A stretch of DNA of 64,000 bases from Flavobacterium sp. (GTDB lineage: Bacteria; Bacteroidota; Bacteroidia; Flavobacteriales; Flavobacteriaceae): contig JAEUTY010000045.1 of assembly GCA_016787805.1 (NCBI GenBank), forward strand, positions 48,036-112,035. Reading direction: 5' to 3'. The notes below the pieces were generated by a model that was given only the letters and a program-made list of their open reading frames with translations, was not told the origin of the DNA and searched no databases. Position numbers and translations under genes: made by a program. This document shows, one piece after another, positions 20,760 to 61,463 of the stretch (position 1 is the stretch's first letter; every line of letters starts with the position of its first letter).

Positions 20760-20770
20760 TTTTTAAAGTA

Positions 20771-23700: not shown

Positions 23701-23938
23701 TTTTCATACCTAAAAAACTAAAAACTAGGGTTTGGTTTTCAGATGCCTTGATAGCATATTTACCATCAATGTCAGTTTGAACACCTGTTTTGCTGCCTTT
23801 AACAACGACGTTTACCCCAGGCAAAGGTAAACCAGAATTGTCGGAAACTACTCCAGTTACAACCCTGTCTTGTGCAAATGAGATTTGCACAAAAAACACC
23901 ATAATAAGTGTTAGAAATAAATTAAACTTTGTTTTCAT
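20771..23938 (-). CDS. SusC/RagA-like TonB-dependent outer-membrane transporter
   Basis: 1055 residues. Signal peptide, then a carboxypeptidase-regulatory-like domain (about 25-105, VVTGVVSDNSGLPLPGVNVVV), plug domain with SGKVSGVQV and VLRGNSSITGNNEALFIVDGIPFDN, and a large beta-barrel ending in an aromatic residue (NLNVKF). It imports the ligand captured by SusD using TonB energy. It is first in a four-gene minus-strand operon. No adjacent anti-sigma factor, ECF sigma factor or hybrid sensor is present, so local regulation is not evident. Confidence 0.95.
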   Translation of the reverse strand: MKTKFNLFLTLIMVFFVQISFAQDRVVTGVVSDNSGLPLPGVNVVVKGSKTGVQTDIDGKYAIKASENQTLVFSFLGMKTQEVSAKNTKVNVKLQDGSIELEGVVVTALGVKKSEKAIGYAAQSLKGNSLSEARESNLVNSLSGKVSGVQVTNSSGAVGASSRIVLRGNSSITGNNEALFIVDGIPFDNSSSNDRGYNGAGNSAAGSGGGRDLPNGVASISPDDIESVTVLKGPNAAALYGLRASNGVVIITTKSGKKGKSKGTVTLNTNVTFSDPLVLPDFQNSYGQGATSEYFEFVDGAGGGYNDGVDESWGPALDKGLEFVQWDSFKVGGAPLPWVSHPDNVKDFYETAINISNNISFSTGTEDANVRLSVGNSDERGMMPFTNFKKFNVGLNGNMKIGKKLTAGASLIFFNDKSTNLPTVGYNSENAAQQFIWSARNVNFKDLKDWRNLPLADPSTPSAGTPISWNTNFQNNPYWVLETNRNTYNRDRLTGSVNLGYQIFKDLSVTAKVSLDHYSQLTTGRQSIGSNAAPDGSYGENSLRHNEINSEYILSYKKQLFKDFNLSLNFGGNQMKRIRTQNWGLANALELPGLYSLSNIKTGTTPIFGNNYNEIRIGSVFGFGQVSYKDVIFVDFSGRNDWASVFAKANNSFFYPSVTGSIVLSELFGTKDSKVNYIKARGGWSKVGGIGALGAYLINPTYTLVNNGWGNQASTPATQFNPNIKPESVIGTEFGLDINAFKNRLRFSGTYYTKTSKDLIVPIQIPEESGYTSSWENVAEMQNKGVELQLGITPIKTENFSFDIDLNFAKNQNKVTDLGDLDTYVLGGQWGVTLEAREGEAYGALVGRGFARDDSGNVIYENGLPVIETTKKVLGNITPDWTGGANFTVKYKSFDLSTLIDAKVGGDVHSMTYAWGRYAGTLEETLIGRETGVVGNGVMSDGAGGYVQNNVVVSAKEFNQASYGNTIEESAIFDATYVKLRQVSLGYTFPKKWLNGSFIDELKFSIVSRNLAILYKKAPHIDPETGFSSSNAELGQEFGQIPSARSYGFNLNVKF

Positions 23939-45484: not shown

Positions 45485-46780
<1,296 letters not shown>

Positions 46781-46803
46781 AAACTAGATATTTATAGATT
46801 TTA

Positions 46804-46833
46804 CCCGATTAATGCAATTAATCGGGTTTTTTT
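46804..46833 (+). terminator. Terminator of eno
   Basis: A perfect 10-bp stem (CCCGATTAAT / ATTAATCGGG) with a GCA loop and a seven-T run, 23 bp after the stop. Confidence 0.9.
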
Positions 46834-46835
46834 AT

Positions 46836-46871
46836 GCGAATTCTAATTCAAAATTGGCGAATTCTAATTCA
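46836..46871 (+). promoter_or_regulatory. Direct-repeat pair, candidate LytTR binding site 1
   Basis: GCGAATTCTAATTCA occurs at 46836-46850 and 46857-46871, exactly 21 bp apart (two helix turns). It ends 26 bp before the TATCTTTG -7 box. The equivalent place upstream of the second kinase has a related pair at the same 21-bp period. LytTR regulators bind as dimers to direct repeats with this spacing. Confidence 0.6.
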
Positions 46872-46897
46872 CACTTTTTTCCAACCTAATGAAATAG

Positions 46898-46905
46898 TAT
46901 CTTTG
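46898..46905 (+). promoter_or_regulatory. -7 box (TATCTTTG) of sensor-LRR operon 1
   Basis: TAnnTTTG match 17 bp before the kinase ATG, predicting a very short leader. There is no -33 TTTG; the direct repeats lie just upstream, which fits an activator-dependent promoter. Confidence 0.55.
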
Positions 46906-46922
46906 AGAAGGATTTTTAGTTA

Positions 46923-48884
46923 ATGAAAAAACAACTCAGTTTATTGTTTTTGTTTATTTCATCCTCTTTTGTTTTGGCTCAAAATGAAAGAATGGACAGT
47001 TTAACTGTGGTTTTAAAACGGGCAAAAAATGATATTGATAAAGTGGAAACACTCAATGCTATTGCCGACGAGTACAAAACATCTGATCCAAAAATGATGT
47101 TGCAATTTGCTGAGCAAGCATTGCAATTATCAAAAAAAATAAACTACAAGGTAGCCGAAGGAAATGCCTATTTAAATATAGGAAATGCTAATATTATTTT
47201 GGGAAGTTATACTATTGCATTACAAAATTCCAATTCGGCTGCTTTTCTTTTTGAAAATCTGACCAACGCCAATCCAAAGCAAACCATCGAAATAAAAAAG
47301 GGTTTAGCCAAAGCCTATGGTAGTATGGGGATTATTTTTTCAGAACAAAGCAATTATACTCAGGCTTTGCATTATTACTTAAAGTCTGTTAAAATATATG
47401 AATCATTAAATGATGAAGCCAAATGCGCTTCAATTTACAATAATATAGGTATAGTTTTTAAATCACAATCTTATGATTTTAAGGCATTAGAGTATTTTGT
47501 TAAAGCACAAAAAATCAAAGAAAAATTAAATGACCCTACCATTAGTATTACCATTACCAATATTGCTAATTGTTATTTGAAGCAAAAAAATTTCGACAAA
47601 GCTTTTGATTATTATCTTCAAGCAAAAAAATATTTCGATCAGTTTCCTAATCCACGTGGTTTAGGCGAATGGTATAACAATTTTGGTTTGCTTTTTAAAG
47701 AATCTAAAAATAGTAGCAAAGCTATTGAAAACTGGAATTTAGCCATTCAAACATTTCAATCAATTGACGACAAGTTTGGTATTGCCGATACTTACCTTTA
47801 TTTAGGACAATTGTATTTAGACCAAAATCAAACTGCAAAAGCTATAGAAATGGCAAAAAAGGCTTTGCAATTGGCATCGGAATTAGAAATTTTGGAGCAA
47901 CAAATGATATCTGAAAAACTGTTAACGGATTGTTATTCAAAAGAAAATAATGCATCATTAGCATTGTTGCATTACAAGTTGTACAATAAGCTAAAAGATA
48001 GCTTGGTCAATGAAGCAAATACCAGGAAAAGTGTTGAAGCTGAAATGAATTTTGAGTTTGAAAAGAAAGAAGCTATTCATAAAAAAGAGCTTGAAAATAA
48101 AGAACTTTTGCTAAAAGAAGAATCCAAACGCAGCAAATTGCAATTGTTTTTTTCACTATTATTTGGAGTATTGTTGTTCGGATTAGGATTTTTGATTTAC
48201 AACCGAATTCAACTGAAAAAAACACTGGTGCTTCAAAAAGAATTAGCCGAATACGAGCAAAAAGCCTTGCATTTGCAAATGAACCCTCATTTTGTTTTCA
48301 ATTGTTTGGGTTCGATTTCGAGTTTTATTGTCAACAATGGCAACGAATCGGCTATAAAATATTTGGCCAAGTTTTCAAAACTTATGCGGTTGACTTTAGA
48401 ATATTCCAAAGAATCATTGATTCCTATTGACAAAGAAATTGAAGGATTGCAAAATTACCTCGAACTCGAACAATTGCGATTCAACAATAAGTTTAGTTTC
48501 TCTATAGACAAAAGTAATGCTATCGAAGATGATATGGCTATTCCTCCATTATTATTGCAACCATTTGTTGAGAATGCTATCATACATGGAGTAATACCAA
48601 AGAAAGAATTGGGAACAATTGCTATTCATTTTTTTATTGAAAAAGAACATTTAGTGTGCACTGTTGAAGACGACGGAATCGGTTTTCAACAGTCGCAACT
48701 AAATAAAGAAAAAACGGTGGTAATTCATAAGTCTATGGCTTTGGAAATTACCAAAAAACGTTTGCAAATGATAGAATCAACAACCAATCAAAAAGCTAAT
48801 TTTAGCATTGAAGAAATAGTAAAAGAAAACCTTATTAAAGGAACTAAGGTAATATTGCATTTACCAATTCAATATATTAATTAA
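46923..48884 (+). CDS. LytS-type sensor histidine kinase with periplasmic TPR domain (operon 1)
   Basis: 653 residues. Signal peptide (about 1-20), a string of TPR repeats (about 40-350, for example YTQALHYYLKSVKIYESL and FDKAFDYYLQAKKYF), a charged coiled-coil, one transmembrane helix (about 407-426), then the PF06580 kinase core with phospho-acceptor His456 in LQMNPHFVFN, N-box PPLLLQPFVENAIIHG and G-box VEDDGIGF. The topology puts the TPRs in the periplasm as the likely sensor. The response-regulator gene starts 2 bp after the stop. It is a clear paralogue of the kinase at 52182. Confidence 0.92.
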   Translation: MKKQLSLLFLFISSSFVLAQNERMDSLTVVLKRAKNDIDKVETLNAIADEYKTSDPKMMLQFAEQALQLSKKINYKVAEGNAYLNIGNANIILGSYTIALQNSNSAAFLFENLTNANPKQTIEIKKGLAKAYGSMGIIFSEQSNYTQALHYYLKSVKIYESLNDEAKCASIYNNIGIVFKSQSYDFKALEYFVKAQKIKEKLNDPTISITITNIANCYLKQKNFDKAFDYYLQAKKYFDQFPNPRGLGEWYNNFGLLFKESKNSSKAIENWNLAIQTFQSIDDKFGIADTYLYLGQLYLDQNQTAKAIEMAKKALQLASELEILEQQMISEKLLTDCYSKENNASLALLHYKLYNKLKDSLVNEANTRKSVEAEMNFEFEKKEAIHKKELENKELLLKEESKRSKLQLFFSLLFGVLLFGLGFLIYNRIQLKKTLVLQKELAEYEQKALHLQMNPHFVFNCLGSISSFIVNNGNESAIKYLAKFSKLMRLTLEYSKESLIPIDKEIEGLQNYLELEQLRFNNKFSFSIDKSNAIEDDMAIPPLLLQPFVENAIIHGVIPKKELGTIAIHFFIEKEHLVCTVEDDGIGFQQSQLNKEKTVVIHKSMALEITKKRLQMIESTTNQKANFSIEEIVKENLIKGTKVILHLPIQYIN

Positions 48885-48886
48885 CT

Positions 48887-49657
48887 ATGATTTCAGCAGT
48901 ATTAATAGACGACGACTTCAACCTTCGCAATGGTACGAAAGGATTGCTCAATTTGTACGCACCACAAATTAAAATTATTGGTGAAGCCGATGATGTAGCA
49001 ACCGGAATTAAAGTTATTAACGCACTAAAACCTGATGTTGTATTTTTGGATATTCAACTCAATGACGGAACTGGCTTTGACATTTTAGAACAATTAGCGC
49101 TTATAAACGGAAAAATAACCTCTCACATTGTATTTATAACGGCGCATGAGCAATATGCAATAAAAGCTTTCCGATTTAGTGCTTTGGATTTTTTGCTAAA
49201 ACCAGTTGATCCCGACGAATTGAAAAAAGTAATCAGTAAAATTCATGAAGTTATAGAAAAGAGCAGCAATTACGCACATATCGATTTGTTGATAGAAAAT
49301 ATCAGAAAGAAAGTTGACAAATTTCAACGAATAGCGCTATCCAATGCTGATGGAATTCATCTTTTTGAAGTAAGTGATATTATTCGATGCGAAAGCGAAG
49401 ACAATTACACCAAATTTTACATCAAAAACAATAAACCCATTTTGATTTCAAAAACATTAAAAGAGTACGAAGAATTGTTAACCGAACATGGATTTGTGCG
49501 CATTCACCAATCGCATTTAATCAATTTGGCTTTTTTGAAATCATTTATTAAAAAAGAGGGTGGTTATGTGATTATGGCTGATAATAGTAACTTGCCAATT
49601 TCACAACGCAAAAAAGATAGTTTGCAGGAAATTTTAACGAAGCAAATGAACAATTAA
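48887..49657 (+). CDS. LytTR family response regulator (operon 1)
   Basis: 256 residues. Receiver domain with acidic pocket IDDD (8-10), phospho-acceptor Asp55 in VVFLDIQL, Thr in FITAHE and Lys in LLKPVDPDE. The C-terminal LytTR DNA-binding domain (about 145-250) shows IIRCESEDNYTKFY and GFVRIHQSHLINL. It should be phosphorylated by the adjacent kinase and bind direct repeats such as those at 46836 and 52092. It lies 11 bp before the LRR gene. Confidence 0.95.
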   Translation: MISAVLIDDDFNLRNGTKGLLNLYAPQIKIIGEADDVATGIKVINALKPDVVFLDIQLNDGTGFDILEQLALINGKITSHIVFITAHEQYAIKAFRFSALDFLLKPVDPDELKKVISKIHEVIEKSSNYAHIDLLIENIRKKVDKFQRIALSNADGIHLFEVSDIIRCESEDNYTKFYIKNNKPILISKTLKEYEELLTEHGFVRIHQSHLINLAFLKSFIKKEGGYVIMADNSNLPISQRKKDSLQEILTKQMNN

Positions 49658-49668
49658 TCTGGATTATT

Positions 49669-51978
49669 ATGAAAAAGTATTTTGTGCTCTTTACATTGTG
49701 TTTTTCTGTTTGTTCTTTTGCGCAAATAGTTAATATACCTGATGCTAACTTTAAAACAAAATTAATCGCTCTCGGAGTTGATACTAATAATAATGTCGAA
49801 ATTGAAGTGAGTGAAGCTTTGGCGATTACTAATTTAGATGTTTCAAGTTCATCTATATCTGATTTATCAGGTATTGAGAGTTTTACCAATTTAATAAATT
49901 TTGATTGTCATTCAAATCAAATCACTTTTTTAAATATTAATAGCTTAGTAAACCTCCAAGTACTTAATGCGAATGATAATCTTTTGTCGACTTTCTCAAT
50001 ATTAGGGTTAAGCAACTTAACACATTTAAGTTTGTCAATTAATAATTTAAGTTCATTGGATGCAAGTGGTTTGTTTAATCTTTTGGTTCTAAATTGTTCA
50101 GATAATCTTATTGCATCATTAAATGTGTCAGGGTTAACAAATCTTATTGAACTCAACTGTAGTAATAATAAACTTGTATCAATTGATTTAAGTAACTTAG
50201 ATAATTTACAGCGTTTAATATGTGCAGGAAACCACCTTGACACAATTAATGTTATTAATCTAAGTAATCTTGATAGATTGCATTGTGATAATAATGGTTT
50301 GACTTCTTTAAATTTAAGCGGATTGTCTCTTCTATTTGAGGTAAATTGCAGTAATAATTTGATTACGTCGATAAATCTGAGTGGTTTAGAATCCTTGAAC
50401 AATTTTTATTGTTCATCAAATGAATTAACTACATTGGATTTTAGCAACATACCTGATTTATTTATTTTAGAATGCCAAAATAACCAACTTGAAACACTAT
50501 TTTTAAAGAATGGTAAAGTTGAGAATACTTTAGTTTTCTCTGATAATCCAAATTTGACATACATATGTGCTGATGAAGATCAAGTTGCAAGCATTCAAAC
50601 CATGGCTGCTACTAATGTGGTTGTTAACTCTTATTGTAGCTTTACACCTGGCGGAAATTTCAATACAATCAATGGAACTATTAAATTTGATCAAGTAGGC
50701 GATGGTTGCGATGCTACCGACAATATACCTCCTTTCGTTCGATTTGAAATGCAAAGCCCAACCAACCAAGTAGAATTTTCTTCCAATGCTGTCGGCGAAT
50801 ACGCCGCTTACGCAATGTTAGGGGAATATGTAGTAACACCAATAATTGAAAATCCGAGTTGGTTTACTATTACTCCAGAGAATGCAACAGTTACATTTGA
50901 TAATACGGACAACAATTTTGTTACACAAAACTTTTGCATCACACCCACTGATATTCATTCTGACGCGGCAATTGTAATCACTCCATTGAATCAACCTGTT
51001 CCTAACACTAATGTAACGTATCAAATTGTTTTCAGAAATAAAGGTACACAACCCTTATTTGGTGTAATCTCATTGAATTATGATGATGGAGCTTTGGATT
51101 ATGTAGATTCGTCTATTTTTCCCGATAATCAAGTTGGTGGTCAATTGGATTGGAACTACATTGAATTGTTGCCGTTTGAGACTAGAACTTTTTTAGTCAC
51201 TTTCAATGTTGGACAAGCTGTTCCAATTGACTATGTTTTACAGCTTACCTCACAAATTTCAACTTCTTTAACCGATGAAATACCATTGGATAATCAATTT
51301 TTATACAAGCGTAAAGTTGTTTCATTTTCCAATTCAAATACTATAACTTGTTTGCAAGGAGAAATAGCGCCAGTAACTTTAATTGGAGAATATCTTGATT
51401 ATGCTGTAGATTTTGAAAATACAGGATTAGCTCCAATTGAAAATGCCGTTATCAAATTTCAAATTAATCCTACAATGTTTGATGCTAACTCAATCCAAAT
51501 TCAAGAGGCAACGGATACAGCTTTTCTTAGAAAAAATGGAAATGTCGTAGAAGTTATTCTTCAACAAGTGAATATTGATACGGGCGGACATGGCAATGTT
51601 TTACTCAAAATTAAAAGCCAACCTACACTTCAAGAGGGAGGCTCAGTAGTCAATGTAGCCAGTATTTATTTTGATTATAACGCACCAATTATAACTAATG
51701 AAGCCGAAACAACGTTTAAAATATTGAATAATCCAAGTTTTCAGTCTGATGAATCGATAACAGTTTTCCCAAATCCAACAACTTCAGTTATTAATATCGA
51801 TTGCAGTAACACTATCAAAACCGTGGAGTTGTATGATGTGCAAGGTCGATTGTTGCAAATTCAAATGGTAGATAGCACTACCACAAGTTTGGATATTTCA
51901 AGTAAAACGAGTGGAATTTATTTCGTCAAAATCACTTCCGAAAAAGGCGTGAAGGTCGAAAAAATTAGTAAAGAATAG
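49669..51978 (+). CDS. Secreted leucine-rich-repeat protein with T9SS sorting tail (operon 1)
   Basis: 769 residues. Signal peptide (MKKYFVLFTLCFSVCSFAQ), an N-terminal cap IVNIPDANFKTKL with an EF-hand-like loop (DTNNNVEIEVSE; the usual Gly is Val), then about a dozen repeats of 20-22 residues (L-x-x-L-x-C-S-x-N-x-L), an Ig-like part, a conserved domain with SGGHGNVLLKI-type motif (here DTGGHGNVLLKI) and FDYNAPI, and a C-terminal type A sorting domain (VFPNPTTSVINI ... GIYFVKITSEKG). It is exported across the outer membrane by T9SS, so it is probably a surface adhesin or ligand binder. Same operon as the kinase-regulator pair. Confidence 0.9.
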   Translation: MKKYFVLFTLCFSVCSFAQIVNIPDANFKTKLIALGVDTNNNVEIEVSEALAITNLDVSSSSISDLSGIESFTNLINFDCHSNQITFLNINSLVNLQVLNANDNLLSTFSILGLSNLTHLSLSINNLSSLDASGLFNLLVLNCSDNLIASLNVSGLTNLIELNCSNNKLVSIDLSNLDNLQRLICAGNHLDTINVINLSNLDRLHCDNNGLTSLNLSGLSLLFEVNCSNNLITSINLSGLESLNNFYCSSNELTTLDFSNIPDLFILECQNNQLETLFLKNGKVENTLVFSDNPNLTYICADEDQVASIQTMAATNVVVNSYCSFTPGGNFNTINGTIKFDQVGDGCDATDNIPPFVRFEMQSPTNQVEFSSNAVGEYAAYAMLGEYVVTPIIENPSWFTITPENATVTFDNTDNNFVTQNFCITPTDIHSDAAIVITPLNQPVPNTNVTYQIVFRNKGTQPLFGVISLNYDDGALDYVDSSIFPDNQVGGQLDWNYIELLPFETRTFLVTFNVGQAVPIDYVLQLTSQISTSLTDEIPLDNQFLYKRKVVSFSNSNTITCLQGEIAPVTLIGEYLDYAVDFENTGLAPIENAVIKFQINPTMFDANSIQIQEATDTAFLRKNGNVVEVILQQVNIDTGGHGNVLLKIKSQPTLQEGGSVVNVASIYFDYNAPIITNEAETTFKILNNPSFQSDESITVFPNPTTSVINIDCSNTIKTVELYDVQGRLLQIQMVDSTTTSLDISSKTSGIYFVKITSEKGVKVEKISKE

Positions 51979-51989
51979 TTAGTTGGGTA

Positions 51990-52032
51990 ACCGTGGATAG
52001 AGTAAGTTAGTCTCTATCTGCGGTTTTTTTTA
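51990..52032 (+). terminator. Terminator of sensor-LRR operon 1
   Basis: ACCG-TG-GATAGAG pairs with CTCTATC-TG-CGGT around a 9-nt loop, with a 2x2 internal mismatch, followed by eight or more T. Confidence 0.85.
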
Positions 52033-52052
52033 TTTTAAATGTATTTAGTTAG

Positions 52053-52078
52053 CCTGATAAGTTTTCATCAGGTTTTTT
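52053..52078 (+). terminator. Second, tandem terminator
   Basis: CCTGAT ... ATCAGG with an 8-nt loop followed by six T, 21 bp after the first terminator. Confidence 0.7.
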
Positions 52079-52091
52079 GCTTTATATACTA

Positions 52092-52124
52092 CAAATTCTC
52101 ATTTAAGTCCAGCAAATTCTCATT
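52092..52124 (+). promoter_or_regulatory. Direct-repeat pair, candidate LytTR binding site 2
   Basis: CAAATTCTCATT occurs at 52092-52103 and 52113-52124, exactly 21 bp apart. It ends 26 bp before the TACATTTG -7 box. With the pair at 46837/46858 (CGAATTCTAATT) the shared core is C(G/A)AATTCT(A/C)ATT, with the same period and nearly the same promoter distance. Confidence 0.6.
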
Positions 52125-52150
52125 CGTAAATTTTGCAATTAATATTGTTT

Positions 52151-52158
52151 TACATTTG
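52151..52158 (+). promoter_or_regulatory. -7 box (TACATTTG) of sensor-LRR operon 2
   Basis: Exact TAnnTTTG match 23 bp before the kinase ATG. A TTTG at 52132-52135 is only 15 bp upstream, too close for a normal -33 box. Confidence 0.6.
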
Positions 52159-52181
52159 TTTAGCGATAAAGTCAAAAGCTA

Positions 52182-54083
52182 ATGCAATTCAAAAAAATAT
52201 ATTATCTACTTTTTTTAGTGTTTACCTTTTTAGGTTATTCACAAAATGATGCAGCAACAATTCTTGGTCTGAAAAAGCAGTTTGACAATGAAAAAAATGA
52301 ATTAAATCAAGCTAAAATTGCACTTCAAATCGCAGAGAAAATTAATTACGCAAACTTGGATGAGGTTGTTTTTTATGCTCAAAAAGGCTACACAATCAGC
52401 AAACAAAAAAAGGATTATGAACAACAAGTCAAAGCCATTCAATTTTTAGGAAATGCTGCCATTATTAAAGGGAATTACCCAAAAGCTAGTCAGTTTTTTA
52501 CAGAAGCAAAAAGTATTTTTGAACAACATCTTCCTCAAAATCAGGAAGGATTAATTAAAACATTAGGTAGTTTGGGGGTGATAGCTTCCGAACAAAGCAA
52601 CTATAATAAAGCACTAGAATATTATTTCCAAGGTAAAAAAATAGCCGACAAGCACCAACTCGTCGCCTTGCAAATCATTTTGAATAACAATATTGGAGTG
52701 ATTTACAAATCGACCAACCGTTATAATGACGCTTTAAAGATATTGAATGAAACTCAGCTATTGCAAAAGAAGACAAAACTTCCAGGTCGCGGAACTACTT
52801 TAACTAATATTGCAACTATTTACGAAGAATTGAATCAATACAAGCAAGTCAAAAAATACCTTGATTGGGCAGCTATTGAGTTGAAAAACAGTCAAGATCA
52901 TAGAGCAATAGGCGAGTGGAACAATAATATGGGTTCATATTATTTTAAAACTTATGATTATACTACTGCCGAAAAACATTGGAATGCAGCCTTGTCGAGT
53001 TTTGATAAAATACAAGATCAATTTGGAAGTTTCGATACGTATTGGTATTTGGCAACTTTAAAAAAAGAGCAAAATCAAATTAGTTTGGCCTTATCTTTTG
53101 CATTGAAAGCCAGAAAATTAGCTGATGCAACACAAGTCTTAGAACATCAAACCAAAATTGAAAAACTCTTGAGTGAATTGTATGAAAAGAACAATGAGGC
53201 TGTTCTTGCTTTACAACATTCTAAAAAACATCAAGTGTTGAAAGACAGTTTGGTGAATCAAGAAAACATCCGAAAAATGACACAAGCTGAAATGAATTTT
53301 GCGTTTGAAAAAGAAAAAATGAAACACCAAGAAGCGTTGAATAAAGCCAATAATAAACAATGGTTTTGGGCGTTGGGAATACTCATTTTATTGTTGCTGT
53401 TTGGCTTGTTTTACCTTCAAAAGAAAAAAGAACAACAAAAACAACAATTACAACTCGAAAATCAATTGCTCGATTATAAACAGAAGGCGTTGCATTTGCA
53501 GATGAATCCACATTTTTTGTACAATTGTTTGGCTGCTATTTCTTCGTACATCATGCAAAATGAAAAAGAAGCAGCGGCAAAGTATTTGGCTATGTTTTCC
53601 AAATTGATGCGATTTACGTTAGAATCTTCAAAGGAAAATTGGATTACGTTGGATAAAGAATTAGCGAGTTTGAACCAATATTTATCACTCGAACAATTGC
53701 GTTTGAAAAACATCTTCGAATTCACCATTGATCGTTCAACTTCGGTAGAAGACGATATGCTCGTTCCTCCAATGTTGATTCAACCTTTGGTAGAAAACGC
53801 CATCATTCACGGCATTTTACCCAAACAAGAAAAAGGAAATATCGAGTTGAATTTTGATGTTCAAAATAATCAGTTGTTTGTTACGATTGAAGACAACGGA
53901 ATAGGAATTGAACAATCAGTGGCAGAAAAACAAAATCAAGTTGAATTGCATAAATCGTTAGCATTAAATATTATCAGAGACCGATTGGAAATGCTACAAA
54001 AAAACAACAATACAGAAGCACGATTAGAGTACCAACCTACAAATATTGGAACAAAGGTTTTACTTGTAATTCCGATAAAATAA
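52182..54083 (+). CDS. LytS-type sensor histidine kinase with periplasmic TPR domain (operon 2)
   Basis: 633 residues, paralogue of the kinase at 46923. Signal peptide (about 1-21), TPR repeats (about 40-345, such as YNKALEYYFQGKKIA), transmembrane helix at about 394-412 (WFWALGILILLLLFGLFYL), coiled-coil, then phospho-acceptor His444 in LQMNPHFLYN, N-box PPMLIQPLVENAIIHG and G-box IEDNGIGI. The TPR part has diverged much more than the catalytic part, suggesting different ligands. The regulator follows 7 bp downstream. Confidence 0.92.
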   Translation: MQFKKIYYLLFLVFTFLGYSQNDAATILGLKKQFDNEKNELNQAKIALQIAEKINYANLDEVVFYAQKGYTISKQKKDYEQQVKAIQFLGNAAIIKGNYPKASQFFTEAKSIFEQHLPQNQEGLIKTLGSLGVIASEQSNYNKALEYYFQGKKIADKHQLVALQIILNNNIGVIYKSTNRYNDALKILNETQLLQKKTKLPGRGTTLTNIATIYEELNQYKQVKKYLDWAAIELKNSQDHRAIGEWNNNMGSYYFKTYDYTTAEKHWNAALSSFDKIQDQFGSFDTYWYLATLKKEQNQISLALSFALKARKLADATQVLEHQTKIEKLLSELYEKNNEAVLALQHSKKHQVLKDSLVNQENIRKMTQAEMNFAFEKEKMKHQEALNKANNKQWFWALGILILLLLFGLFYLQKKKEQQKQQLQLENQLLDYKQKALHLQMNPHFLYNCLAAISSYIMQNEKEAAAKYLAMFSKLMRFTLESSKENWITLDKELASLNQYLSLEQLRLKNIFEFTIDRSTSVEDDMLVPPMLIQPLVENAIIHGILPKQEKGNIELNFDVQNNQLFVTIEDNGIGIEQSVAEKQNQVELHKSLALNIIRDRLEMLQKNNNTEARLEYQPTNIGTKVLLVIPIK

Positions 54084-54090
54084 TTTCAAA

Positions 54091-54846
54091 ATGATTAAAA
54101 CCATTCTCATAGAAGACGACGAAATTCTCCGCAAAGGATTACACCAAATGTTAGAGCTTTATGCACCTAATTTTGTAGTTATTGCTGAAGCTGAAACGGT
54201 TGCAAATGCAGTTGAAGTTTTGTTAGAAAAAGAACCCGATGTTGTGTTTTTAGACATCATGCTCATAGGTGGAACTGGTTTTGATGTATTGAAACAATAC
54301 CAAGTAAAAAATGGATTTCCTAATTTTCAATTGGTGTTTATCACAGCTTTTGAAGAATATGCCATAAAAGCTTTTCGCATGAGTGCTTTGGATTATTTGC
54401 TCAAACCCGTTGATCCTGACGAACTCAAAGAAGTAATCCGAAAAATAGAAAAAGCAAAAACACTTCATCCTGACTCATTTGAACTATTGATAGACCAATT
54501 AGGCAAACAAAACCATAACAAGAAAATAGCTTTGGCCACAGCAGAAGGTATTCATATTGTTTTGATAGATGAAATCGTTTATGCACAAGCCGATAACAAT
54601 TACACGACCATTGTACTCAACAATAATAAGCAAATTATTGTTTCAAAACCTTTAAAAGAATATGAGGAATTACTAGCGGAAAAAGGGTTTTTACGCATTC
54701 ATCAATCGTATTTAATTAATACACAATACGTGCAATTTTTTGATAAAATGGAACACACAGTTCAACTCAACACCAACGCCATTCTTCCTGTTGCGAGTAG
54801 AAAAAAAGAGTTGCTGTTGCAAACTATAACCAAATTAACAAGATAG
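54091..54846 (+). CDS. LytTR family response regulator (operon 2)
   Basis: 251 residues, paralogue of the regulator at 48887. Receiver with IEDD (8-10), Asp55 in VVFLDIML, Thr in FITAFE and Lys in LLKPVDPDE; LytTR domain with IVYAQADNNYTTIV and GFLRIHQSYLINT. The DNA-contacting region is similar to that of its paralogue, so cross-binding to the two related direct-repeat sites is possible. It lies 29 bp before the first LRR gene. Confidence 0.95.
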   Translation: MIKTILIEDDEILRKGLHQMLELYAPNFVVIAEAETVANAVEVLLEKEPDVVFLDIMLIGGTGFDVLKQYQVKNGFPNFQLVFITAFEEYAIKAFRMSALDYLLKPVDPDELKEVIRKIEKAKTLHPDSFELLIDQLGKQNHNKKIALATAEGIHIVLIDEIVYAQADNNYTTIVLNNNKQIIVSKPLKEYEELLAEKGFLRIHQSYLINTQYVQFFDKMEHTVQLNTNAILPVASRKKELLLQTITKLTR

Positions 54847-54875
54847 AATTAAAGTCAAACAAAATAAGAAAGCCT

Positions 54876-57860
54876 ATGAAAACTATATTCAGAATACTCG
54901 TTTTTTTGTTTTTAGCACATAGTGTGCAAGCGCAAATTGTAAACATACCCGATGCGAATTTTAAGAATACTTTATTGTTTGCTGATATTGATAATGAAAT
55001 TGCAAAAGACATTAATAATAGTAGCATTAAAATTGATAATAATAATGATGGTGAAATTCAACTTGCAGAAGCTCAAAATGTATTTTATTTACAATTATCA
55101 AACAATGAAATTCAAAATATAATAGGAATTGAAAGCTTTACATTTCTCATAAATTTGGATTGCGCAGGAAGTGGAATTTCATCATTTGATTTCTCAATGC
55201 CGAGTTTACAAACTTTAAATTGTAGCGGTTGTCCTTTACTAACGTCATCACTAGTTTTATCAGGTGTGCAAAATCTGCAAACTTTAGATTGTAGTGATTG
55301 CAACCTATTAATATCATTAGATTTATCAAGTTTATCAAATTTGGTTAATTTCAATTGTTACCATTGTGACGCCTTAACAACTTTAAATTTAAATGGACTT
55401 AGCAATCTTCAAAATATAAATTGCGGAACATGCGGACTATTAACTTCATTGAGTTTAGTTGGTCTTACTAATCTTCAAAGTTTGAATTGTACTGATTGTT
55501 ACAATATGACTTCTTTAAATTTTGGTGGTAATACTAGTTTAACATACTTAAACTGTAGTAATTGTTATGACTTGGTAAGTTTAGATGTTAATAGTTTAGT
55601 TAACCTTCAAACATTAAGTTGTAATTATTGCATTTCATTAACAGCTATCAATTTAAGCGGAATGTCTAATTTAAATTCCATAAGTATTTCTAATTGTTCT
55701 GCCGTTACAAATTTAAATATTACTGGAGTCAACCCTATTGAATTTGGTTGTTCCGCAATAGGGTTGAGCTCTATTGATGTAACTGCTATGACTAATTTAG
55801 AACGTTTATATTTGGGTTATAATGCTTTAAGTAATTTAAATGTATCAACTTTAGTTAATTTGAAAACATTAGATTTCCAGTACAACGGTTTAAACAATAT
55901 TGATTTATCTCAATTAATTAATTTAGAAGTTTTATTTTGTCACAGAAATCACCTAACTAGTTTGAATATTAATTCTTTAATTAATTTGAAGTATGTAGAT
56001 TGTCATTTTAATAATTTAAATACACTTGATGTTTCTGGATTAGTCAATTTGCAAGAATTGTATTGTTCAAATAATTCAATGTCTAGTTTAAATCTTACCA
56101 ATTGTATACAATTATATAAACTGAATATTGTGAATAATAATTTTTCATCTATAGACCTATCAGATCTTGTAAATTTAAATTCATTTGAATGCAATGAAAA
56201 TCAAATTACTTCATTAGATTTTTCAAATCACCACAAATTACAAACTTTAAATGTTAATAACAATTTATTGACCTCTTTGGATTTGAGTCAATCCTTAATT
56301 TATGAAGCTGTAGACTATTTTATTCATAATAACCCCAATTTAGTATATGTAAATTTAAAAAATGGTTTAAATATCGCAAACTTTGGTTCAATAATTTCAA
56401 CTTCGGGATGTCCAAATTTAGAATTTATATGTGCAGATGAAGAAGAAGTTCAATATATTCAACAGCTTGTTTCAAATCCAAATGTTCAAGTAAGTTCCTA
56501 TTGTAGTTTTACTCCTGGAGGAAATTACAACACAATCACAGGTACAACCACTTTTGATAGCGATAACAACGGTTGTGATGTAGCTGATTTACCCAAACCC
56601 AACATCAAAGTTAATATCAATGACGGAACCAATCAAGGTGCTACTTTTACCAATAATTCAGGCGATTATAATTTTTATACACTAGCTGGTAGTTATACTT
56701 TAACACCCAACATTGAAAATCCTTCTTGGTTTACTTTTTCGCCAACAACCGCTACGATTCCTTTTGCTAATAATAATAACAATGTGGTTACCCAAAACTT
56801 CTGTATTTCATCCAATGGAATCCACAACGACTTAGAAGTGGTTATTGCTCCAATAACATCTGCTCAACCTGGTTTTGATGCTGTGTATCAAATTGTCTAT
56901 AAAAACAAAGGCAATCAAACACTTTCAGGTGATGTAAGTTTAACTTTTGATGATAATAAAACGGACTTTGTTTCAGCAACTCCTAATCCAGATAACTTGG
57001 CCGTCAATTCACTATCATGGAATTACACCAATTTATTGCCTTTTGAAAGCAGAACCATCAATGTAATGTTGAATGTGAATGCTCCAACAGATACACCGCC
57101 AGTTAATATTGGAGACGAGTTGGATTTTGTAGTAGCTATTAATCCTATTGTTAACGATGAAATTCCGTTGGATAATAGTTTCAATTACAACCAAATTGTT
57201 GTAGGAAGTTTTGATCCTAACAATATTGAATGCCTCGAAGGTGAAGTCGTAGCACCAAGTTACATTGGTCAATATTTGCATTACGCTGTCAATTTTGAAA
57301 ATACAGGCAATTTTCCGGCTGAAAATATTGTAGTAAAAATAGTTATTGATACTACTAAATATGATATGAATTCGCTGCAATTACTCAATGTTTCACACAA
57401 TTCCTACACTCGAATTAAAGATAATATAGTAGAAATCATCTTCCAACAAATCAATTTAGATTCAGGAGGTCATGGTAATATATTGTTCAAAATCAGAACC
57501 AATGATAACCTTGTTGAAGGTAATTCTGTTGCCAAACGCGCCGACATATTCTTTGATTATAACGCGCCAATTGATACTGGAATGGCTAACACTACTTTTG
57601 AAGTATTAAACAACAGTGTTTTTGAGTTAGATGATACCATCTCGATTTATCCTAATCCAACCTCTTCAATAATCAATATCAATGGCAATTTCAATATCAA
57701 AACTATACAGTTGTATGATGTTCAAGGACGATTATTACAAACTCAATTAGCTGATGAGGTACAAACTTCAATTGATATTTCTGAAAAATCAAAAGGTGTT
57801 TATTTCCTTAAAATCACTTCCGATAAAGGAAGTAAAGTCGAAAAACTAATTAAAGAATAA
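54876..57860 (+). CDS. Secreted LRR protein with CxxC ladder and T9SS sorting tail (operon 2)
   Basis: 994 residues. Signal peptide (MKTIFRILVFLFLAHSVQAQ), cap IVNIPDANFKNTL with a complete EF-hand loop (DNNNDGEIQLAE, residues 54-65), then about 20 leucine-rich repeats. In seven consecutive repeats (residues 116-252) the usual Cys-S-x-N becomes Cys-x-x-Cys, spaced 22-23 residues. Later domains: an Ig-like segment (NGCDVADLPKPNIKVNI), a conserved LDSGGHGNILFKI/FFDYNAPI domain, and a C-terminal sorting domain (IYPNPTSSIININ). It is likely surface-displayed. The 3' part is nearly duplicated in the next gene. Confidence 0.9.
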   Translation: MKTIFRILVFLFLAHSVQAQIVNIPDANFKNTLLFADIDNEIAKDINNSSIKIDNNNDGEIQLAEAQNVFYLQLSNNEIQNIIGIESFTFLINLDCAGSGISSFDFSMPSLQTLNCSGCPLLTSSLVLSGVQNLQTLDCSDCNLLISLDLSSLSNLVNFNCYHCDALTTLNLNGLSNLQNINCGTCGLLTSLSLVGLTNLQSLNCTDCYNMTSLNFGGNTSLTYLNCSNCYDLVSLDVNSLVNLQTLSCNYCISLTAINLSGMSNLNSISISNCSAVTNLNITGVNPIEFGCSAIGLSSIDVTAMTNLERLYLGYNALSNLNVSTLVNLKTLDFQYNGLNNIDLSQLINLEVLFCHRNHLTSLNINSLINLKYVDCHFNNLNTLDVSGLVNLQELYCSNNSMSSLNLTNCIQLYKLNIVNNNFSSIDLSDLVNLNSFECNENQITSLDFSNHHKLQTLNVNNNLLTSLDLSQSLIYEAVDYFIHNNPNLVYVNLKNGLNIANFGSIISTSGCPNLEFICADEEEVQYIQQLVSNPNVQVSSYCSFTPGGNYNTITGTTTFDSDNNGCDVADLPKPNIKVNINDGTNQGATFTNNSGDYNFYTLAGSYTLTPNIENPSWFTFSPTTATIPFANNNNNVVTQNFCISSNGIHNDLEVVIAPITSAQPGFDAVYQIVYKNKGNQTLSGDVSLTFDDNKTDFVSATPNPDNLAVNSLSWNYTNLLPFESRTINVMLNVNAPTDTPPVNIGDELDFVVAINPIVNDEIPLDNSFNYNQIVVGSFDPNNIECLEGEVVAPSYIGQYLHYAVNFENTGNFPAENIVVKIVIDTTKYDMNSLQLLNVSHNSYTRIKDNIVEIIFQQINLDSGGHGNILFKIRTNDNLVEGNSVAKRADIFFDYNAPIDTGMANTTFEVLNNSVFELDDTISIYPNPTSSIININGNFNIKTIQLYDVQGRLLQTQLADEVQTSIDISEKSKGVYFLKITSDKGSKVEKLIKE

Positions 57861-57864
57861 GCAT

Positions 57865-60003
57865 ATGAAAAAGTTAATTTATCTTTTGTTGTTGGTGCCT
57901 TTTTGTGTAAACGCACAAATCATCAACTTTCCAGATCCACTTTTTAAAGCGAAGTTGCTGCAAGCGAGTAGTATTAATGAGATAGCCTACACTACTTCTA
58001 ATAATTATAATAAAATTGACACCAATAATAATGGCGAAATTGAATTGAGTGAGGCTGCTTTAATCAAACGATTGTATGTCGGTTCTTCTGGTATCACCTC
58101 ATTAGAAGGAATCACTAATTTTGTGAATTTGGAGTTCATAAGTTGTGGTCAAAATTCTATTTCAACCATAGATTTGTCGGGTTTAAACCTTTTAACGGCT
58201 ATTTGGGCTGAATATAATCAACTGACCAATATCGATATTTCTCCATTTCAAAATTTAACAACTCTTTCTGTAGGAAATAATCAACTTCAAAATCTTGATA
58301 TATCCAATAATCCTAATATTGGGATTTTGTATTGCGATCACAATCAACTTCAAAATTTGGATTTGTCTAACTTAACGGGTTTGTGGAGATTAGACTGCAG
58401 TTATAATCAGATTCAAACAATTGATTTGTCAAATAATGCGACCAACATGATTCAACTTTATGCCGGTAATAATCCTAACCTAACTACTCTCTTAGTTAAA
58501 AATGGTTATGAAGAATGGGAAGGATTAACCTTATCCAATTGCCCTAATTTAAATTACATCTGTGTGGATGATTTTCAATTAACTTTTATGCAAGCTTACA
58601 TTCAAAATGTTCTCGCTTTGCCTAATTGTACAGTTAATACCTATTGTTCTTTTATCCCTGGAGGAGACTTTAATGTCATTACCGGAACAACAACTTTTGA
58701 TAGTGATAATAATGGTTGCGATGACAGTGATTTACCCAAACCCAATATCAAAATCAATATTAACGACGGAACGAATCAAGGCGCTAGTTTTTCCAATAAT
58801 TCGGGTGATTATAATTTTTATACACAAGCGGGAACTTTTACTTTAACGCCCAATATCGAAAATCCTTCTTGGTTTACTTTTTTACCAGCAACTGCTACAA
58901 TTCCTTTTGCAGATAATAATAACAACATAAGTGAGCAAAACTTCTGTATTTCGCCCAATGGTGTTCACCATGATTTAGAAGTAGTTATTGCGCCAATAAC
59001 ACCAGCTCGACCAGGTTTTGATGCGACGTATGAAATTGTCTTTAAAAATAAAGGAAATCAGACACTTTCTGGAAATGTAAGCTTGACGTTTGATGATGAT
59101 AAAACGGATTTTGTTTCTTCCAATCCGAACCCTAATAACTTAAATCTGAATTCACTTTCTTGGGATTATACCAACTTATTGCCTTTTGAAAGTAGAGTTG
59201 TACAGTTAACTTTAAATGTAAATGGTCCAACCGAAACTCCTGCGGTCAATATTGGTGATGTATTGCATTTTACAGCCACAATAAACCCAACTGCTGGCGA
59301 TGAGTTTCCAAATGATAATACATTTAACTATAACCAAATTGTTGTGGGTAGTTATGATCCTAACAATATTGAATGCCTCGAAGGTGAAGTGGTAGCGCCA
59401 AGTTATATTGGTCAATATTTGCATTATGCTGTCAATTTTGAAAACACGGGCAATTATCCAGCTGAAAACATTGTGGTCAAAATAATTATTGATACTACTA
59501 AATACGATATAAATTCGTTGCAATTGCTCAACGTTTCACACAATTCGTACACTCGAATTACTGGCAATATAGTAGAAGTTATTTTTCAACAAATCAATTT
59601 AGATTCAGGCGGACATGGTAATTTGCTTTTCAAAATTAGAACCAGCAGCAATCTTGTCGAAGGAAATTCAGTGGCCAAACGAGCGGATATTTTCTTTGAT
59701 TACAACGCACCAATTGATACCGGAATGGCAAACACTACTTTTGAAGTATTAAACAATAGTGTTTTTGAGTTAGATGATACCATCTCGATTTATCCTAATC
59801 CAACCTCTTCAATAATCAATATCAATGGCAATTTCAATATCAAAACTATAGAGTTATATGATGTTCAAGGACGATTATTGCAAACCCAGTTGCTTGATGA
59901 AATACAAACTTCTATTGATATTTCAGAAAAATCAAATGGCATTTATTTCCTTAAAATAACTTCAGATAAAGGAAGTAAAGTCGAAAAAATTGTGAAAGAG
60001 TAA
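57865..60003 (+). CDS. Secreted short LRR protein with T9SS sorting tail (operon 2)
   Basis: 712 residues, 4 bp after the preceding paralogue. Signal peptide (MKKLIYLLLLVPFCVNAQ), cap IINFPDPLFKAKLL with an EF-hand-like loop (DTNNNGEIELSE), only about seven leucine-rich repeats (YNQLTNIDISPFQNLTTL and similar), then C-terminal domains almost identical to those of the 994-residue neighbour. This includes a 93-bp stretch with no base differences (57615-57707 against 59758-59850). The recognition part is short and different while the anchoring part is conserved, suggesting duplication followed by divergence of the binding face. Confidence 0.9.
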   Translation: MKKLIYLLLLVPFCVNAQIINFPDPLFKAKLLQASSINEIAYTTSNNYNKIDTNNNGEIELSEAALIKRLYVGSSGITSLEGITNFVNLEFISCGQNSISTIDLSGLNLLTAIWAEYNQLTNIDISPFQNLTTLSVGNNQLQNLDISNNPNIGILYCDHNQLQNLDLSNLTGLWRLDCSYNQIQTIDLSNNATNMIQLYAGNNPNLTTLLVKNGYEEWEGLTLSNCPNLNYICVDDFQLTFMQAYIQNVLALPNCTVNTYCSFIPGGDFNVITGTTTFDSDNNGCDDSDLPKPNIKININDGTNQGASFSNNSGDYNFYTQAGTFTLTPNIENPSWFTFLPATATIPFADNNNNISEQNFCISPNGVHHDLEVVIAPITPARPGFDATYEIVFKNKGNQTLSGNVSLTFDDDKTDFVSSNPNPNNLNLNSLSWDYTNLLPFESRVVQLTLNVNGPTETPAVNIGDVLHFTATINPTAGDEFPNDNTFNYNQIVVGSYDPNNIECLEGEVVAPSYIGQYLHYAVNFENTGNYPAENIVVKIIIDTTKYDINSLQLLNVSHNSYTRITGNIVEVIFQQINLDSGGHGNLLFKIRTSSNLVEGNSVAKRADIFFDYNAPIDTGMANTTFEVLNNSVFELDDTISIYPNPTSSIININGNFNIKTIELYDVQGRLLQTQLLDEIQTSIDISEKSNGIYFLKITSDKGSKVEKIVKE

Positions 60004-60021
60004 ATAAGTTTCTAGTAACTA

Positions 60022-60049
60022 AAAGCGTACTTCGGTGCGCTTTTTTTTT
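60022..60049 (+). terminator. Terminator of sensor-LRR operon 2
   Basis: AAAGCGTAC-TTCG-GTGCGCTTT (one G-U, UUCG tetraloop) followed by a T run, 18 bp after the stop. Confidence 0.9.
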
Positions 60050-60179: not shown

Positions 60180-61463
60180 ATGTCAAAAACAGCAATATTA
60201 GAATACGAAGGCAATAGGTATGAGTTTCCTGTAATTGTAGGAAGTGAAAACGAACCCGCCATTGATATCGAAAAATTACGCGCGCTAACTGGCGCAATTA
60301 CGCTTGATCCAGGGTATAAAAACTCTGGTTCTTGTAAAAGTGATATCACTTTCCTTGATGGAGAAGAAGGAATTCTTCGTTACCGAGGCTATGCAATTGA
60401 AGACTTAGCAGAAAAAGCAGATTTCCTAGAGGTTTCTTATTTAGTAATCTTTGGAGAATTACCGACTAAAGCACAATTGACACAATTCGAAACCGATATC
60501 AGAAAGTATACATTGGTTAACGAAGAAATGAAAAACATCATTGACGGTTTTCCAAAAACCGCGCATCCAATGGGTGTTTTATCATCGTTAACTTCTGCTT
60601 TAACTGCTTTCAACCCGAAAGTGGTAAATGTAGACAACGAAAAAGAAATGTATGAAGCGGTTTGTAAAACCATGGGTAAATTCTTGGTCATCGCTACTTG
60701 GACGTACCGCAAAATGATGGGTTATCCATTAAATTATTACGATAATACCAAAGGTTATGTTGAAAATTTCATGCGTTTAATGTTTGAATTGCCAACCGGA
60801 CCTTATGTTTCAAATCCGAAAGTAATTGATGCTTTGGATAAATTATTTATTCTACACGCTGATCACGAACAAAACTGTTCTACATCAACGGTTAGAATCG
60901 TAGGTTCTTCACATGCAGGTTTGTTTGCTTCTATTTCTGCTGGAGTTTCTGCACTTTGGGGACCATTACACGGTGGAGCAAATCAAGCCGTGTTAGAAAT
61001 GTTAGAAGATATTCAAAAAGACGGTGGTGATGCCGATAAATATTTAGCTAAAGCCAAAGACAAAGACGATCCTTTCCGTTTGATGGGATTTGGTCATAGG
61101 GTTTATAAAAACTTTGATCCAAGAGCGAAAATCATTAAGAAAGCAGCCGATGAAGTGTTAAACACTTTAGGTGTTGATGATCCTATTTTACAAATTGCCA
61201 AAAAATTGGAAGAATCAGCTTTGGTGGATGATTATTTTGTATCAAGAAAATTATACCCTAATGTTGATTTCTATTCAGGTATTATTTACCGTGCTTTAGG
61301 AATTCCAACAGATATGTTTACGGTACTTTTTGCGATTGGTCGTTTACCAGGTTGGATTGCACAATGGAAAGAAATGCGTATCAACAAAGAACCTATTGGA
61401 AGACCACGCCAAGTTTATACTGGATATCCATTAAGAGATTTCGTTCCGATGGAAAAAAGATAA
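60180..61463 (+). CDS. gltA: Citrate synthase
   Basis: 427 residues, type I hexameric family, condenses acetyl-CoA and oxaloacetate at entry to the TCA cycle. Markers: ITFLDGEEGILRYRGYAIEDLA, catalytic His in LHADHEQNCSTSTVR and in WGPLHGGANQAV, MGFGHRVYKNFDPRA, and catalytic Asp in the NVDFYSGIIYRALGIP segment. It ends in a strong terminator. In related genomes gltA usually lies close to eno, so the 13-kb LRR block may be an insertion; this is from memory. Confidence 0.98.
   Translation: MSKTAILEYEGNRYEFPVIVGSENEPAIDIEKLRALTGAITLDPGYKNSGSCKSDITFLDGEEGILRYRGYAIEDLAEKADFLEVSYLVIFGELPTKAQLTQFETDIRKYTLVNEEMKNIIDGFPKTAHPMGVLSSLTSALTAFNPKVVNVDNEKEMYEAVCKTMGKFLVIATWTYRKMMGYPLNYYDNTKGYVENFMRLMFELPTGPYVSNPKVIDALDKLFILHADHEQNCSTSTVRIVGSSHAGLFASISAGVSALWGPLHGGANQAVLEMLEDIQKDGGDADKYLAKAKDKDDPFRLMGFGHRVYKNFDPRAKIIKKAADEVLNTLGVDDPILQIAKKLEESALVDDYFVSRKLYPNVDFYSGIIYRALGIPTDMFTVLFAIGRLPGWIAQWKEMRINKEPIGRPRQVYTGYPLRDFVPMEKR

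Follow-up and report, generated by a model that had tools for sequence, protein, structure and literature searches.

What do two neighbouring sets of sensor kinase, LytTR response regulator and LRR surface-protein genes control in a Flavobacterium genome, and are the surface proteins the regulated output of the kinases or part of what the kinases sense? The question is raised by a 64,000 nt stretch of DNA, referred to here as the window, which belongs to a source genome of 3.23 Mb in 51 contigs (G000).

Organization and recurrence of the two operons

In the window ORF list, seven + strand ORFs span 46923-60003 and form two head-to-tail operons, within which the genes are separated by gaps of 2, 11, 7, 29 and 4 bp. 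A sequence-only reading of this DNA had described two tandem operons of shared gene order with 2-29 bp between genes, and the ORFs, their Pfam domains and the measured gaps all agree with this. The genes and their surroundings are as follows.

45488-46780: enolase (read by eye), flanking operon 1 on its upstream side
46803-46827: terminator-like hairpin before operon 1
46923-51978, + strand: operon 1 (TPR-PF06580 kinase, LytTR response regulator, LRR-DUF7619-T9SS-tail protein)
46923-48884, + strand: sensor kinase K1, 653 aa, with TPR solenoid, PF06580 kinase domain and a hydrophobic segment that starts at residue 408 (signal peptide read by eye)
48887-49657, + strand: LytTR response regulator R1, 256 aa (Response_reg and LytTR, Pfam)
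49669-51978, + strand: LRR surface protein L1, 769 aa, with an LRR head like that of internalin J, a DUF7619 stalk and a T9SS type A tail (signal peptide read by eye)
52051-52074, + strand: terminator-like hairpin after operon 1
52182-60003, + strand: operon 2 (TPR-PF06580 kinase, LytTR response regulator, two LRR-DUF7619-T9SS-tail proteins)
52182-54083, + strand: sensor kinase K2, 633 aa (42% identical to K1)
54091-54846, + strand: LytTR response regulator R2, 251 aa (50% identical to R1)
54876-57860, + strand: LRR surface protein L2, 994 aa (LRR-DUF7619-T9SS tail)
57865-60003, + strand: LRR surface protein L3, 712 aa (DUF7619 and T9SS tail; its LRR matches fall short of the cut-off)
60021-60044, + strand: terminator-like hairpin after operon 2
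60180-61463: citrate synthase (read by eye), flanking operon 2 on its downstream side

Elsewhere in the window, a SusC/SusD-like pair (TonB plug and SusD-like domains) lies at 19338-23938 on the - strand.

From their sequences, K1 and K2 can be classed as PF06580-type sensor kinases on domain score (79.4 and 78.8 bits against a cut-off of 25.2; E 2.4e-22 and 3.6e-22) and on the His and N/G-box residues: H456, N551, D583, G585 and G587 never vary in two alignments, of 16 and 24 kinases. TPRs are present in both, and HATPase_c falls slightly below its cut-off (Pfam). Identity with FimS (NCBIfam NF053520) was rejected for the two kinases, at 75.9 and 43 bits against the 600 required. R1 and R2 are likewise predicted LytTR response regulators, with a LytTR domain and a receiver that carries the phospho-acceptor Asp; D9, D55 and T85 are conserved in 102/102 distinct regulators. 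Among the fetched loci, for which K2 and R2 did not serve as queries, no relative of K2 exceeded 44% identity and none of R2 51%, and R2 forms a long branch of unsure place in the regulator tree.

The TPRs of the kinases are probably periplasmic, since a hydropathy scan finds a single above-threshold segment in each kinase (from residue 408 in K1 and 394 in K2) and a signal peptide is read by eye. In the AlphaFold model of K1 (pTM 0.53), a TPR solenoid at residues 22-340 is followed by one long helix, 344-451, of moderate to lower confidence, which crosses the hydrophobic segment.

A K1 homologue was found in 35/150 genomes of the genus (E 1e-60) and, at E 1e-100, in 7/299 genomes of the family and 6/236 genera. 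The 46 kinase matches in the genus were reduced to 40 regions by leaving out the two window kinases, two G069 rows and G145:C355; the two kinase rows of G133 are one broken gene and count as one locus. This broken kinase (L131; G133 C1, 339084-341032) is split into two frames and still has an A-type box upstream and a regulator and LRR-like gene downstream. Kinase, regulator and LRR-like gene, the last defined by a best BLAST match to L1-L3, occur on one strand and in that order in 38 of the 40 regions, the two exceptions being 27-29% paralogues. In a second set, the best 80 of 333 relatives were fetched as named loci, of which 73 show kinase, regulator and a next gene; contig ends, an intervening small ORF and one broken gene account for the other seven. 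An LRR-like gene follows the pair in 71/73, the exceptions being L352, where the second next gene is LRR-like, and L357. The two sets overlap by at least 15 loci with identical kinases and are therefore not independent. The named loci belong to Flavobacterium, which holds the nearest named relatives of the window kinase, and to Dokdonia, Ulvibacter, Aequorivita, Marinirhabdus, Planktosalinus and Lacinutrix. Flavobacterium aquatile and Dokdonia pacifica are two species whose environmental type strains have the module.

The conserved order of TPR-PF06580 kinase, LytTR regulator and T9SS LRR gene that the sequence-only reading had proposed to look for is thus borne out in both sets. It had also held that its case would fail if LRR genes were found equally often without the pair, and here the outcome is divided. 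DUF7619 proteins are common without the pair, occurring in 128/150 genus genomes (117 above the cut-off) against 35/150 for the kinase, and 16 of the 19 in the source genome lie outside the module; the pair without an LRR-like neighbour is rare (2/40 and 2/73). No named system composed of a kinase, a LytTR regulator and a T9SS LRR protein was found in the open-access literature searched, and the earlier remark that no such system was known stands within that scope.

A direct repeat and a putative -7 element before the kinase genes

Each kinase gene of the window is preceded by an 11-bp direct repeat of period 21, 32 bp overall. The left edge of the region singled out in the sequence-only reading, 46836, is the start of the direct repeat, yet that reading was silent on it. 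The signals between the boxes and the kinases are listed here.

46837-46868, + strand: LytTR-type box of operon 1, CGAATTCTAAT, 10 bp, CGAATTCTAAT (period 21), matching 22/22 consensus positions
46898-46905, + strand: putative -7 element TATCTTTG (TAnnTTTG), 29 nt past the operon 1 box
52092-52123, + strand: LytTR-type box of operon 2, CAAATTCTCAT, 10 bp, CAAATTCTCAT (period 21)
52151-52158, + strand: putative -7 element TACATTTG (TAnnTTTG), 27 nt past the operon 2 box

None of 100 shuffles was as good as the operon 1 box. Among the upstreams of 105 distinct kinases, 52 repeat an exact 8-mer at lag 21; at the other lags from 12 to 44 no more than three do so, and in shuffled sequences no more than five. 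A score of at least 18 over the 22 box positions is reached by 63/79 kinase upstreams of the named loci versus 3/545 other genes there, and two of these three non-kinase genes look exported. In the first 40 kinase upstreams, 32 outscore all 100 shuffles. A clear box is absent from 8/40 genus upstreams, and the score is below 18 in 16/79 named ones; in one of the eight (L122), a strict box falls inside the long ORF start that was chosen. The predicted box has the geometry of a LytTR site, namely direct repeats of 9-11 nt, a period of about 21 and a promoter downstream (PMC4847170, PMC6193735). Published sites have repeats of 9-11 nt and spacers of 11-13 nt, according to the accessible part of PMC4847170; the half-sites here can be taken as 11 nt with a 10 nt spacer or as 9 nt with a 12 nt spacer.

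The position of the promoter is also conserved. TAnnTTTG is the flavobacterial/Bacteroidota -7 consensus (PMC9723704, from the text available), and an exact match starts 27-29 nt past the box in 61/79 distinct A-type promoters (73/91 before 12 duplicates were removed), with a single mismatch in 16 more. No exact TAnnTTTG was present elsewhere within 72 nt in the A-type promoters. B-type promoters, whose half-site differs as described below, have the -7 element at 27-29 nt in 7/8. For the window itself, the earlier reading gave each operon its own promoter and terminator. The terminator-like hairpins agree with it, and the region contains 11 such sites against a shuffled mean of 5.8 (SD 2.8), about twofold. 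Promoter matches of the E. coli sigma-70 type in the region, 70 against 66.1 expected, are at chance level, but each operon has a TAnnTTTG element.

A second box accompanies the LRR gene in many loci. Where the regulator-LRR gap is at least 70 nt, a box scoring at least 17 is present in 48/54 named loci, compared with 3/19 where the gap is shorter. As gap boxes track the longer gaps in this way, the LRR gene appears either to lie near enough for co-transcription or to own a box. Among 54 distinct gap boxes from both locus sets, the -7 element is found at 27-29 nt as an exact match in nine and with one mismatch in 39.

Each operon is, in all likelihood, an autoregulated two-component system for the display of T9SS surface proteins. 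The periplasmic TPR sensor suggested by the topology would control the PF06580 kinase, which, judging from the conserved residues, would phosphorylate the adjacent LytTR regulator. The regulator would bind the two 11-bp direct repeats 21 bp apart. With the near repeat ending 27-29 nt before the -7 element, its position suggests that it would control, and probably activate, a housekeeping-sigma promoter. Its targets would be its own operon and the LRR gene, reached by co-transcription across a short gap or through a box of its own after a long one, and in several genomes also unlinked T9SS cargo genes. The exported products would form a coat, their internalin-like heads variable and their stalk and sorting tail better conserved. 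The proposal in the sequence-only reading that the LRR proteins are the regulated output of a self-regulating module is supported in silico by the box before the kinase and, in long gaps, before the LRR gene.

In many copies the module has enolase on one side and citrate synthase on the other (identified by eye in the window, elsewhere by BLAST), and the arrangement could be viewed as mere inherited synteny at this site, with no functional linkage. This is highly improbable, as gene order, box and promoter spacing are kept at other sites, including those of the B clade, Dokdonia and Aequorivita, among others.

Boxes at unlinked loci and two half-site types

If the adjacent regulator reads the box, further targets may be sought elsewhere in the genome, and the putative regulon rests on such pattern searches. 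The strict pattern, CRAATWCTM, 12 nt, CRAATWCTM, occurs in 24/150 genus genomes, comprising 21/35 with the kinase and 3/115 without it; a reversed control pattern occurs in 3/150. Many of the strict matches in kinase-bearing genomes are the kinase promoters themselves. Setting aside these promoters, the boxes in regulator-LRR gaps and that of the G145:C355 paralogue (L257, where a 35% kinase paralogue with a strict box lies at the edge of a contig) leaves 18 unlinked loci. They are found in 8/35 genomes with the kinase versus 3/115 without it (p 4e-4, with shared ancestry ignored).

At 11 of the 18, an ORF with a T9SS sorting domain begins 36-84 nt downstream; the source genome, of 3.2 Mb, has 104 Por_Secre_tail matches. 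The other seven are not closely 5' of a T9SS gene. One (G100:C39) is followed by an ORF that looks like a lipoprotein and has a Fib_succ_major domain, one (G033:C4) has a small lipoprotein-like ORF 157 nt on, another in the same genome (G033:C5) has a CHU_C gene 769 nt on and that of G085 precedes a 136-aa tRNA_anti-like protein. Nothing of note lies near those of G136, where the box is inside a gene, G078 and G145:C340. Spacing was assessed for 22 unlinked boxes, of which three have an exact -7 element at 27-29 nt and eight more have one with a single mismatch.

A relaxed search (up to three mismatches) was dropped, because the matches listed included a widespread AAATTCCAAT repeat, whether or not the genome had the kinase. 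Repeats of the AAATTCCAAT type are common in the Flavobacterium genomes searched and imitate the box at two to three mismatches. Among 29 relaxed-match loci in kinase-less genomes, taken as a control, 15 are inside an ORF, 13 are intergenic and one was not re-found; an ORF starts within 160 nt of seven of the 13 intergenic matches, and none can be recognized as LRR from its first residues, in loci of 3 kb with the tails outside view. Among the relaxed matches of the source genome are a triple half-site with two 21-bp steps before an unlinked LRR-DUF7619 gene (L141; contig C14, 13674-13726) and, on C42, a box upstream of a two-gene unit in which the second gene encodes a sorting tail. G100 also has a triple half-site (L261), and its boxed LRR gene at L260 has similar neighbours (an ORF beginning MANVKKE).

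The three genomes with strict boxes and no kinase at E 1e-60 are G100 (five loci, four of which precede T9SS genes), G135 (one locus) and G136, with completeness of 89%, 85% and complete, respectively. An R1 orthologue (E 1e-40) was not found in any of the three, and a search for R1 over 63/115 kinase-less genomes gave a best match of 47% identity. The kinase and regulator of G100 may possibly have been lost in an assembly gap. As boxes occur without K1 or R1, another LytTR protein could read some of them. Extended to the module, this would mean that the boxes serve a different LytTR protein and the adjacent regulator acts elsewhere, an idea to which the 13 LytTR matches of the source genome and the boxes in these three genomes lend something. 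We give it a slim chance: no lag-21 repeat stands out before eight other kinase/LytTR genes of the source genome, and the half-site type follows the adjacent regulator, as set out below.

Twelve regulators form one group, the B clade, with support of 100/98. Their kinases have a clear CAAATAATAAT box in eight cases and a weak one in four, and position 241 is S in 12/12 B-clade regulators and R in 89/90 other distinct regulators, with a gap in one. One genome, G120, holds module copies with both box types, L137 scoring 20/22 for the A type and L134 21/22 for the B type, each beside a regulator of the matching kind, which again argues against a reader other than the adjacent regulator; four further genomes also hold both regulator kinds, with one weak box apiece. 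In all, 14 positions differ at >80% in each group between A and B regulators, seven of them in the LytTR domain. R241 appears the most suggestive of these in a comparison that rests on one clade. R241 would read the G opposite the C of TC in CAAATTCTAAT. We take R233 of AgrA, a base contact, to lie near R241; the alignment of R1 with AgrA was inferred from the FhRhHRS motif (AgrA 196-202; R1 203-209). The correlation of half-site and residue is to be seen as a lead and not proof, and a single evolutionary change may underlie all of it.

Taking autoregulation by the adjacent regulator as the preferred reading, a broader view can be put forward tentatively and with some doubt. The module would comprise duplicated, mutually insulated coat circuits, each with its own half-site (TC in CAAATTCTAAT with R241, AA in CAAATAATAAT with S241), with several LRR coats on a constant stalk and unlinked T9SS genes recruited by gain of a box.

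Surface proteins and related systems

L1-L3 have putative signal peptides, read by eye from the translations, and, by domain score, the tail of T9SS type A cargo, the sorting domain (Por_Secre_tail/TIGR04183) giving 51.9, 60.8 and 55.6 bits against a cut-off of 23. DUF7619 and Por_Secre_tail are present in all three; LRR_4 passes its cut-off in two, the third reaching 22.4 of 27 bits. A model of the L1 head shows an LRR solenoid with high confidence. Its best solved match by sequence (E 1.4e-31, residues 23-276), and also its top fold match by E-value (1.4e-15; TM 0.31 and 0.50), is internalin J (3bz5). Listeria internalin J resembles L1 in this head; it has a Gram-positive wall anchor, whereas L1 has a T9SS tail and a DUF7619 stalk. 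Membership of the Internalin J family (NF033187) was rejected for L1-L3, at 101, 74.8 and 60.2 bits against a cut-off of 1700.

The same architecture is found in other loci, with DUF7619 in 54, Por_Secre_tail in 54 and LRR_4 in 38 of the 55 proteins scanned downstream of the pair. The regulators average 78% pairwise identity (61 loci) and the kinases 60% (64 loci), against 50% in the stalk and 37% in the LRR head (55 loci), and the heads range from 168 to 918 aa (55 loci). Within the window, L2 and L3 share a 3' part of 1368 bp at 83% DNA identity (56489-57856 and 58632-59999), which covers stalk and tail; in their LRR heads the two proteins are different. This constant part may be read as recent copying or conversion.

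DUF7619 has a predicted isopeptide bond (PMC12617251, in the portion available). The residue after DPN[DN] is K in 7/7 source-genome copies outside the window in which the motif was detected (9/16 were without a detected motif), and in module-linked stalks it is I/V in 41/44 and K in 3/44 of those detected (11/55 without). This K is probably the lysine of the predicted bond, so that the bond may be lost in the module proteins.

The sequence-only reading had also allowed that the LRR proteins contribute to the sensory input. In that case the periplasmic TPR would read the LRR protein, or the state of its export, giving feedback on surface display. Kinase and LRR gene are tightly linked, although co-regulation explains this equally well, and the TPR is predicted to be periplasmic, on the modelled helix 344-451 leading through the hydrophobic segment to the kinase. 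By analogy, a position upstream of PorXY is assigned to the T9SS-tailed protein PorA in Porphyromonas gingivalis (PMC7712824, as far as its available text goes). Stalk divergence tracks the TPR beyond the kinase domain (partial correlation 0.37), as if stalk or tail rather than head met the sensor, but divergence of the LRR head is almost uncorrelated with that of the TPR (rho 0.15; partial correlation about 0 when the kinase domain is controlled for; noisy LRR alignment of 55 loci). A sensory role for the LRR protein is thus unsupported, and feedback of this kind is unlikely.

The module can be compared with known systems. The YpdA/YpdB-type LytS/LytTR systems of E. coli are similar in having a PF06580 kinase, a LytTR regulator and a direct-repeat site; YpdA and LytS presumably belong to the PF06580 kinase class, and we take BtsS/BtsR to be a LytS/LytTR-type two-component system. 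The module differs from the YpdA/YpdB type in that its putative output is a T9SS surface protein within the same operon. LytS/YpdA-type kinases have a multi-TM receptor, in place of which the module has a predicted periplasmic TPR sensor.

The LytTR Regulatory Systems (LRS) of Streptococcus and others also have direct repeats just 5' of the operon's promoter. Positive feedback from these repeats is shown there, and their authors set LRS, with a membrane inhibitor protein, apart from two-component systems (PMC6193735, from the part accessible). The module has a kinase and a receiver-bearing regulator, not a membrane inhibitor; membership of LRS was rejected, as the regulators carry Response_reg and their partner has PF06580. 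PorXY-SigP with PorA in P. gingivalis is a two-component system tied to the T9SS with a T9SS-tailed protein in the pathway; PorXY controls T9SS machinery genes through SigP, and the available portion of the source describes no LytTR regulator or LRR cargo (PMC7712824). The tandem LRR proteins of Flavobacterium psychrophilum are comparable as putative secreted LRR adhesins under environmental control, 17 of which are induced by fish plasma; no adjacent regulator is described in the accessible part of that work (PMC9723704).

In the open-access literature searched, no description of a LytTR target of the T9SS surface-protein kind in flavobacteria was found. The natural pair of half-sites and the few candidate residues make LytTR DNA specificity testable. 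As the paired box precedes both the operon and other exported-protein genes, the findings suggest that one control circuit governs part of the cell's outer coat. This is a candidate answer to how some flavobacteria choose which T9SS proteins they display, involving one regulator, a 32-bp box and targets that can be checked.
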